Assembly: GCA_016871805.1 (NCBI GenBank)
Contig: VHCG01000001.1
Location: 1 to 64,000, forward strand
Source: Verrucomicrobiota bacterium
GTDB lineage: Bacteria; Verrucomicrobiota; Verrucomicrobiia; Limisphaerales; UBA9464
Reading direction: 5' to 3'
Length of the DNA: 64,000 nt
In this document: in pieces, positions 5,992-42,934 of the stretch
Layout: the number at the start of each line of letters is the position of its first letter
Position numbering within the stretch: the stretch's first letter is position 1
The notes under the pieces: generated by a model
Databases searched by the model: none
What the model was told of the DNA's origin: nothing
Seen by the model: only the letters and a program-made list of their open reading frames with translations
Position numbers and translations under genes: made by a program

Positions 5992-6040
5992 TGGGTGCAC
6001 CCGGTGCACCCAGTGATGCAGGGCACTGCATCCCCCACCA
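5992..6040. repeat. Dispersed two-hairpin intergenic repeat, copy 1
   Basis: GTGGGTGCACCCGGTGCACCCAGTGATGCAGGGCACTGCATCCCCCACC; shares the core of copies at 10537, 23110, 31717 and 40926. Confidence 0.85.
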
Positions 6041-10536: not shown

Positions 10537-10581
10537 TGGGCGCTCCCGTACCCGGTGCCGCAGGGCACTGCGGCACCCACC
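10537..10581. repeat. Dispersed two-hairpin repeat, copy 2
   Basis: GGGCGCTCCCGTACCCGGTGCCGCAGGGCACTGCGGCACCCACC; a repeat right-end-like tract (CCTCCACGTCTCCACGTCTCCGCGTCTCCGCGTG) lies about 60 bp downstream. Confidence 0.8.
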
Positions 10582-10725
10582 GACACGCGCCCCTCGGAGG
10601 TGATGCGTTGCGCCCAGGCAGAAGAGACCCGTCCCTTGCCTCCTCCACGTCTCCACGTCTCCGCGTCTCCGCGTGCCTCCCTTCGTCTTCCCCTGCATGA
10701 CACTCCCGACTCCGGGACGGTCGTG

Positions 10726-21935: not shown

Positions 21936-22807
21936 TCGACGTTCTGGACCTGTTCCCTAAACCGTTCGAGTTCGGTCTTCAAGCCCACCACCTCGACCGC
22001 GATCTGCGCGTCATTCGACTTGGAACCGATGGTGTTGACCTCGCGGTGGATCTCCTGGGCGAGGAAGTCGAGCTTCCGGCCCACGGGATCCCGGCTGCGT
22101 CGACAGTCCTCGAACTGGACGAAATGGCTCTCGAGGCGCGCCAACTCCTCGCTGATGTCGGACCGATCGGCAAACAGCACGAGCTCCTTGAGCAGCCGCT
22201 CGTCGTCGGCCTGCACCCCCTCGAGCCCCGCCGCGTGGATCCGCTGGAGCAGACCCTCGCGATATCGCTTCTGGACCTCCGGAGCGCGGTCACGGACGCG
22301 TGCGCTGGCGGAGCGGAGGGCCCCGATGCGTTCGACCAGATCGCGTTCGAGCGCACCGCCCTCGCGGTCCCGCGTGGCGTTGAACTCCTGGAGCGCGGAC
22401 CGCACCGCGGCCTCGATGGCGGGCCAGAAGGCCTCGGCGTCGGCCACCGTGGATCCCGGACGCAGGACTCCGGGACACCGCAGGAGGGCGTCGAGGGTCA
22501 CCGCCCCCTCGAGTTGGAGGTCCTTGGCGAGGGATCCGAGCTCCCGGGCATAGGCCTCGGCGAGCGGACGGTTCAGCTGCAGGGCGAGGGCGTTGGCCGG
22601 GAGATCGAGATCGACCCGGACCTCGACCCGACCGCGGGACACCTCCCTCAGGACCTCCTCGCGGACCCGGGATTCCAGGGGCTCAAGCTCTGCCGCGAGG
22701 CGGGTCTGCACCTCCGCCTGCTTGCGGTTGACGGAGCGGATCTCGACCCCCACGCGGACCCCATCCGCCACATGGACACCACGGCCGAAGCCGGTCATCG
22801 AACGCAT
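21932..22807 (-). CDS. YicC/YloC family endoribonuclease-like protein
   Basis: MRSMTGFGRG N-terminus; C-terminal GRKLDFLAQEIHREVNTIGSKSNDAQIA. Confidence 0.93.
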   Translation of the reverse strand: MRSMTGFGRGVHVADGVRVGVEIRSVNRKQAEVQTRLAAELEPLESRVREEVLREVSRGRVEVRVDLDLPANALALQLNRPLAEAYARELGSLAKDLQLEGAVTLDALLRCPGVLRPGSTVADAEAFWPAIEAAVRSALQEFNATRDREGGALERDLVERIGALRSASARVRDRAPEVQKRYREGLLQRIHAAGLEGVQADDERLLKELVLFADRSDISEELARLESHFVQFEDCRRSRDPVGRKLDFLAQEIHREVNTIGSKSNDAQIAVEVVGLKTELERFREQVQNVE

Positions 22808-22882: not shown

Positions 22883-23268
22883 GACTCACACGGTGACGCA
22901 GAGGCACGGAGGAAAGGCGGGGGAGATCAAGACGGAGGCGATGCCGGTAGGGCTGTGCTCCGCCACGGTCCCATCTTGATCCGATGCGCGTCGTGCACCC
23001 GTGAAGGCGGACGGGTTCGTCTGCGGCGTCAGAGGATCCCGGCTGGAACCACAGGTCGACCAACCCCTCGTGGTCTAGATGGGGACGCCACGGAGGGCGT
23101 CCCCACCGGGGTGGTCGCTCCTGCGCCCAGTGATGCAGGGCACTGCATCACCCACCCATCGATGCCTTCGGCTTACGAACCGGTGCCACACCAACCCCGT
23201 GATTCCGTCCGCTTTTTCACCTCCCTCTCCCGGTTCTCCCTCCGCGTCTCCGCGTCGCCGTGTGAGTC
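22883..23268. repeat. MITE-like dispersed element, full-length copy A (386 bp) with terminal inverted repeats
   Basis: Left GACTCACACGGTGACGCAGAGGCACGGAGG; right end reverse complement GACTCACACGGCGACGCGGAGACGCGGAGG; interior similar to 31480-31887. Confidence 0.85.
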
Positions 23269-23306: not shown

Positions 23307-24257
23307 ATGATTCCCAGCGTGCCCGACCCCCTGTCCCTGATCCGACCGCGTCGACGCATCGAGGGTTTCTCGGCCATCCTCCTGCCGTTCCTCTCGGAGG
23401 GTTCCGTCGACTGGGACGGATTCCGCGGACACGTGCGTCGGACCGTCGAGGCCGGACTCGGACCCGCGGTCAACATGGACACCGGGTTCGGCAACCTGAT
23501 CAACGAAGCCACCAAACGCCACGCCCTGGAGATCACACGCCAGGAATGCGCCGGTCGATCCTACGTCGCTGGCGCCTTCGTGGGCGATGCGCCCGGGGCC
23601 GCGTTTGCCCGCGATGCCTACGCCCGCCAGATGGAGATGATCCAGGAGTTCTCCGGCATTCCGGTGATCTTCCAGAGCCATGGCCTGACCGGCCAGCCCG
23701 ACGACACCATCGTTGCCGCCTACGCCTCGCTTGGGGCGCTCTGCGACCGGTTCGTGGGGTTCGAGCTCGGCACCATGTTCGCCCCGTTCGGCAAGATCTA
23801 CTCCCTCGACGTCTTCCGCGGGTTGATGGGGGTGAGGTCGTGTATCGGGGCCAAACACTCGTCGCTCCGTCGGGATCTCGAATGGCAACGGCTCGTCCTG
23901 CGCGATGCCATCCGGCCCGACTTCCGCGTGTACACCGGGAACGACCTCGCGATCGACATGGTCATGTACGGCAGCGACTACCTTCTGGGGCTGTCGACCT
24001 TCGCCCCCGACGTCTTTGCCCGACGCGACGCCGCCTGGGCGGCGGGCGACCCGGCGTTCCACGAACTCAACGACCTGCTGCAGTACCTGGGGTTCCTGGC
24101 GTTCCGTCCGCCCGTGCCCGCCTACAAGCACAGCGCCGCACAGTTCCTGAAGCTCCGCGGCTGGATCGGGTGCGACGACACCCATCCCCGCTCGCCGCGG
24201 CGACCGGAGTCGGATCGGGAGATCCTCGCCGACATCGTGGCCCGGCTCCCGCGGTAA
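23307..24257 (+). CDS. Dihydrodipicolinate synthase/N-acetylneuraminate lyase-like family protein
   Basis: [57 protein letters not shown]. Confidence 0.75.
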
Positions 24258-31479: not shown

Positions 31480-31887
31480 GACCCACACGGCGACGCGGAG
31501 ACACGGAGGAAAGACGAGGGAGATGAGGGAGACGAAGACCGAGGCGATGCCGGTAGGGCTGTGCTCCGCCACGGCCCCATCTCGATCCGATGCGCGTCGT
31601 GCACCCGTGAATGGGGACGGTGTCACTGACGCGTCACAGGATCCCGGCTGGGCCGGTTCGATCCACTCCACCCTCGCGGTCTAGATGGGGACGCCACGGA
31701 GGCCGTCCCTACCGGGGTGGGCGCTCCCGCGCACAGTGATGCAGGGCACTGCATCACCCACCCATCGATGCCTTCGGCTTCGAAAAGCACCGGCAACTCA
31801 TGGAGCCAAGGCACCGCTGCCACCCACCCCTTCTCGCCCTGCCTCTCTCCCGTCTTACCTCCGCGTCTCCGCGTCACCGTGTGAGTC
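31480..31887. repeat. MITE-like dispersed element, full-length copy B (408 bp) with terminal inverted repeats
   Basis: Left GACCCACACGGCGACGCGGAGACACGGAGG; right CCTCCGCGTCTCCGCGTCACCGTGTGAGTC; interior resembles 22883-23268; fills the gap between convergent genes. Confidence 0.85.
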
Positions 31888-40925: not shown

Positions 40926-40971
40926 GTGGGCGCTTCCGCGCCCAGTGCCGCAGGGCACTGCGGCACCCACC
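40926..40971. repeat. Dispersed two-hairpin repeat, copy 5
   Basis: GTGGGCGCTTCCGCGCCCAGTGCCGCAGGGCACTGCGGCACCCACC. Confidence 0.85.
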
Positions 40972-42828: not shown

Positions 42829-42934
42829 GACCCACACGGCGACGCGAAGACGCGGAGAACAAAGAGAGGGGATCCGATGGCTTCAGCCCTTCCGTCCTTC
42901 TCGACCTCCGCGTCTCTGCGTCGCCGCGTGAGTC
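42829..42934. repeat. Short (106 bp) derivative of the MITE-like element
   Basis: GACCCACACGGCGACGCGAAGACGCGGAGA ... CCTCCGCGTCTCTGCGTCGCCGCGTGAGTC; hairpin interior absent. Confidence 0.8.

Follow-up and report, generated by a model that had tools for sequence, protein, structure and literature searches.

The 386-bp element at positions 22883-23268 of the window, the 64,000-nucleotide stretch of verrucomicrobial DNA analysed here, is best read, with a probability of roughly 0.6, as a non-autonomous member (copy A) of a family bounded by terminal inverted repeats (TIRs), whose autonomous form would be a nuclease-driven GxxExxY unit. Among gene families, only GxxExxY was found with TIRs of this type, and it is probably the partner of the TIR family; the same TIR type around GxxExxY genes, which encode a nuclease of ~130 residues, suggests a mobile element of a very small and hitherto undescribed kind.

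Copy A is delimited by a left TIR (22883-22912), built from GACTC followed by the 8-bp units ACACGGTG ACGCAGAG GCACGGAG, and a right TIR (23239-23268), built from the 8-bp units CTCCGCGT CTCCGCGT CGCCGTGT followed by GAGTC; these and the features below are given without a strand. The arms are 87% complementary over 30 nt and perfectly complementary in their outermost 9 nt (GACTCACAC/GTGTGAGTC), which places the limits of the element exactly where the preliminary description had put them and bears out its ~30-bp imperfect TIRs. Inside lie module A (22944-22981), a hairpin common to many family copies and kept in the orthologous element of a congener (G001), and the internal hairpins reported in the same description: module B (23076-23111), the hairpin GGGGACGCC..GGCGTCCCC with arms near 23080-23105, and module C (23130-23151), the palindrome GTGATGCAGGGCACTGCATCAC, which elsewhere also occurs without TIRs. 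The fold-back of copy A has a z of -5.6, equalled by none of 100 shuffles. Judged from its sequence, copy A has no convincing coding frame of its own, as had been claimed: the long ORFs that cross it are high-GC open frames or an in-frame upstream extension of the right-hand gene, and do not convince as independent genes. The element fills 386 of the ~500 bp that separate yicC (TIGR00255 match, E 1e-70; likely ATG near 22807), on its left, from the right-hand gene, which starts at 23307. The naming of yicC as a neighbour stands; the right-hand gene is weakly DHDPS/DUF993-like, its DUF993 match being sub-threshold. The preliminary description held that the element could affect the expression of either neighbour; no sigma-70-like promoter or terminator match was found in the copy A interval.

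The source genome (3.92 Mb, 124 contigs, 91% complete) holds many relatives of this element. A DNA query with copy A matched locally at 81 places, and five of the copies beyond copy A are full-length, at 79-82% identity; the right-arm TIR pattern (<=3 mismatches) matched 109 times, compared with 0 for the same pattern read backwards as a control. Left and right TIRs formed 43 pairs in the 0.79 of 3.92 Mb covered by the pair statistics, 42 of them spanning 106-718 bp. Three further members fall in the window: copy B, a second full-length copy (31480-31887; 408 bp, 80% identity over the full length); a short copy (42829-42934; 106 bp) made of two TIRs with little interior; and a remnant (10537-10679) that joins module C (10537-10581) to a right TIR (10651-10679). 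The family ends read GGGACTCACAC../..GTGTGAGTCCC, with purine/pyrimidine tracts that fade outward; the TIR itself consists of 8-bp units in an array terminating in TCACRC../..GYGTGA, and the interiors vary, modules A, B and C being present to differing degrees among copies. Module C also appears away from TIRs in 15 of 65 copies in the 0.79-Mb sample (for example at 6005-6039 and 40926-40971 of the window), like an independent REP. Beside a family copy elsewhere in the genome, a 2.4-kb TIR-to-TIR span (C70:5243-7625) includes an ORF in which, by eye, a piece of a group II intron reverse transcriptase seems recognisable.

These dozens of dispersed, gene-free copies with common TIRs support the MITE-like identity proposed for copy A, and the genome-wide search for further copies suggested with that proposal is answered by the 109 TIR matches and 42 short pairs. 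The family is below ~0.7 kb, non-coding, TIR-bounded and present in multiple dispersed copies, but lacks detectable target-site duplications, which are usual for MITEs without being universal: permutation tests covering up to 9 bp adjacent to the elements and 70-bp windows detected none. The search for a transposase with matching TIRs was equally fruitless, none being present inside any TIR pair examined, and no gene other than GxxExxY was found inside family TIR pairs. On plasmids, copy A was unmatched and GxxExxY genes were few.

Comparison with congeners bears on the age of the family. The TIR pattern matched 81 times in G001 and not at all in G002 or G003. Elements with both flanks on one G001 contig occupy the same site in both genomes, and their interiors differ through internal loss or gain; several others are synteny breakpoints, with flanks on separate G001 contigs. 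This comparison is a biased sample, in which only occupied sites or breakpoints are seen, because most G001 contigs were picked for carrying TIRs. Copy A, for which the preliminary description had advised looking for an empty site, is instead a synteny breakpoint: most of the element is retained in G001 together with the right-hand gene, while other sequence replaces the left TIR and yicC. At another site (C52:11906-12591 against L325), the orthologous elements differ by ~260 bp of interior with a module C copy at each end, as though it had been lost or gained by recombination between the two. The occupied sites and breakpoints shared with G001 thus mark the family as old in this lineage, where it acts as portable homology. 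Copy A is thus a member of a MITE-like, TIR-defined family that is old and probably inactive in the source genome, a reading drawn from the dispersed TIR pairs, the missing target duplications and the missing empty site. Such a family would have spread in the common ancestor of the source genome and G001, and may now serve mainly as dispersed homology where the chromosome rearranges.

GxxExxY proteins often carry repetitive N-termini. With this in mind, and given the 8-bp-unit arrays of the TIRs, PF13366 was tested as the partner of the family. No GxxExxY (PF13366) gene was found in the source genome, at its 91% completeness. The single GxxExxY gene of G001 has on either side a family member with GACTCAC ends, the two being direct repeats, and that of G002 is similarly laid out, with a CTCTGTG-type end; in both cases the gene is between two elements, and no single TIR pair directly encloses it. 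At these two congener loci (L122, L121) the repetition of the elements extends to ~50 bp of adjoining flank. In G005 an octamer TIR pair does enclose the gene directly, with the start codon falling just beyond the left arm. All three proteins (G001, G002, G005) exceed the curated cut-offs of TIGR04256 / PF13366. The open literature yielded incidental mentions of GxxExxY, and nothing that links it with TIRs or octamer sequences or assigns it a function; the TIR association seen here by sequence comparison thus appears not to have been described for TIGR04256 / PF13366 in the literature found.

The association extends well beyond these relatives. Protein similarity was the sole criterion by which eighty GxxExxY loci were gathered from GTDB genomes. 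Verrucomicrobia, Planctomycetes, Proteobacteria, Desulfobulbaceae, Bacteroidetes and Chloroflexi are represented, judged by record title, and the loci are not all independent, because some come from close relatives. An octamer core lies within <=300 bp of the gene in 71/80 loci, and core density is 4.0 per kb there as against 0.24 per kb further out. The gene is enclosed by a correctly oriented octamer TIR pair (<=150 bp) in 55 of 78 loci, compared with 7 of 3635 displaced same-size windows from the same loci, and an inverted-repeat score blind to the octamer sequence reaches >=16 in 76% of GxxExxY loci versus 0/218. The resulting units are 396-624 bp long (median 449) and mostly amount to one ORF that reaches into its own TIRs, the stop codon falling in or past the right TIR in 37/54 units. 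Their ends, TCTCACRC../..GYGTGAGA or GACTCACRC../..GYGTGAACC, are of the type that bounds the window family. PF13366 genes taken without selection from the same bacterial order often have inverted end arrays built from other units (such as CGCGGAATA, CGCTAATCT or CACGGATTT), with a score >=16 in 19/32; the layout is therefore not limited to the octamer clade.

Several observations bear on the mobility of these units. In several pairs of units that come from unrelated organisms, DNA homology ends at the TIRs. A generic junction BLAST among the GxxExxY loci was swamped by tandem arrays, and a comparison within Sphingopyxis was used instead: relative to a small conserved gene, the unit lies upstream in L181 and L230 and downstream in L182 and L186, where the upstream position is unoccupied, and its orientation is inverted in L233. 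The ends of MITEs match the TIR variant of the unit at the same locus, with 2.0 mismatches versus 3.7, a difference reached in 0/2000 permutations and uncorrected for base composition. In a genome that carries a unit (G078), one short element (C71:9976-10134) has ends like both of those of the unit, with the interior missing. Tandem octamer elements with near-identical spacers of roughly 30-45 bp were seen in L185, L207, L208, L220 and L334, and in G028 (L333, L337, L339) an octamer MITE lies within an outer inverted repeat, CTGAGCCGTA..TACGGCTGAG, the two having been copied together.

For the GxxExxY protein, structure prediction gave a confident, nuclease-like model (pLDDT 90, pTM 0.82). The catalytic residues D75, E85 and K87 are 99-100% conserved, and E35, Y38, Q99 and N116 vary little or not at all. 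The nearest folds are PD-(D/E)XK nucleases such as the Cas4 protein SSO0001 and lambda exonuclease, at weak E-values (best E 0.006), and no PDB relative was found by sequence. From these comparisons we infer that the GxxExxY nuclease moves the elements. The autonomous form would be a ~450-bp arrangement of TIR, GxxExxY gene and TIR, in which the nuclease would recognise ends made of 8-bp units and start movement by binding the octamer arrays and cutting, host repair then inserting or copying the DNA. MITEs would derive from units through internal loss with both ends retained, and would owe their movement to a GxxExxY gene acting in trans for as long as one was present; the source genome may have lost that gene, or its copy may be unassembled. 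The absence of target duplications fits such a repair-based route, without being proof of it.

Alternatively, copy A could belong to an ordinary MITE family mobilised by an unseen classic transposase, with GxxExxY merely carried along by the same kind of element, perhaps as a defence or toxin-like gene. This idea builds on Rpn, another PD-(D/E)XK family once named transposases and reported as phage-defence toxins (PMC10327210), and it would account for a source genome with MITEs and without a GxxExxY gene. We nevertheless consider it unlikely, though not negligible: no other gene turned up inside family TIR pairs, GxxExxY is the sole gene of ~450-bp units whose ORF overlaps the TIRs, and TIR variants agree between units and nearby MITEs. 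Distinctly improbable, in our judgement, is a reading of the TIR arrays as sites with a regulatory or structural function around certain genes (terminators, or sites of protein binding or DNA processing), spread by recombination without transposition. Elements that are synteny breakpoints with exchanged interiors, the missing target duplications and the existence of tandem arrays would all suit it; however, the position and orientation of units vary among related genomes, with one position unoccupied, homology across phyla stops at the TIRs, and the copy A interval has no terminator-like site.

Two further readings are very improbable. Were copy A a conserved non-coding RNA or a cis-regulatory element of both neighbouring genes, its strong fold-back and the internal modules kept in the G001 ortholog would be expected, but its copies are dispersed beside many unrelated genes and the left neighbour differs in G001. 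A conserved ncRNA had been raised in the preliminary description as an explanation of the similarity, and finds no backing in a search of Rfam, which gave no match for copy A, or in an alignment of family copies, which gave no covariation support (covariation term +2.4). Equally improbable is an identity as a REP/REPIN that owes its movement to a RAYT (Y1) transposase, or as a four-helix IVP-type element. The internal palindromes are REP-like, and IVP genes have an analogous layout, with inverted 7-bp-unit arrays on either side, but neither TIRs nor modules occur near six Y1_Tnp loci, which speaks against RAYT/Y1 as the partner, and the IVP gene (PF05635) is disfavoured by its absence from the source genome and G001 and by ends that are 7-bp arrays, none of the tested IVP loci having octamer TIRs on both sides. 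The inverted 7-bp-unit arrays often seen at IVP (PF05635) loci L247-L271 (CAGCGGT, AGAATCC, GTTTTCA, GGCGTCA) form a parallel layout around an unrelated protein.

Bacterial MITEs are short, non-coding, TIR-bounded sequences present in many copies, intergenic in place and variable in their interior. The window family resembles them in size, TIRs, copy number, intergenic place and variable interior, and differs from them generally in having no target-site duplication, ends made of octamer arrays, no parent transposase that could be found and a probable parent with a nuclease. The MITE in hupL of Thiomargarita nelsonii has been proposed to derive from a PD-(D/E)XK_2 (YhgA-type) element (Flood et al. 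2016, PMC4853749) and, like the window family, is tied to a PD-(D/E)XK nuclease gene and not to a DDE or HUH transposase. A nuclease-type MITE parent therefore has a precedent from a different nuclease family: the hupL case concerns a PF12784/TIGR01784 nuclease in one organism, whereas the PDDEXK_3/GxxExxY genes seen here extend over several phyla and have matched ends. Rpn / YhgA-like nucleases promote RecA-independent recombination (PMC5350276); Rpn and GxxExxY are both small mobile PD-(D/E)XK nucleases, the proposed role of Rpn being DNA acquisition by non-classical joining, but Rpn belongs to the Pfam family PF04754 and not to PF13366. The 23S rRNA intervening sequence with an S23p/IVP ORF, 428 nt in Coxiella (PMC4990558), resembles the GxxExxY unit in being a selfish element of very small size whose one ORF is also small, but its type encodes a four-helix bundle protein unrelated to GxxExxY, uses 7-bp units and in the classic case occupies an rRNA site.

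Tentatively, and at slightly less than even odds, GxxExxY units can be viewed as a distinct cross-phylum class of mobile element. At ~400-600 bp they would rank with the smallest known autonomous DNA elements, and would combine a PD-(D/E)XK nuclease of ~120-140 residues as sole gene with ends built of octamer arrays and a lack of target duplication. They would be the parents of large MITE families, including that of the window, and would form one clade among several that each have an end-repeat unit of their own. GxxExxY proteins occur widely, and the proposal would make their gene the motor of a tiny mobile element while also giving an origin for a large class of intergenic repeats. If true, it would tie a MITE lineage to a PD-(D/E)XK nuclease and not to a classic transposase.
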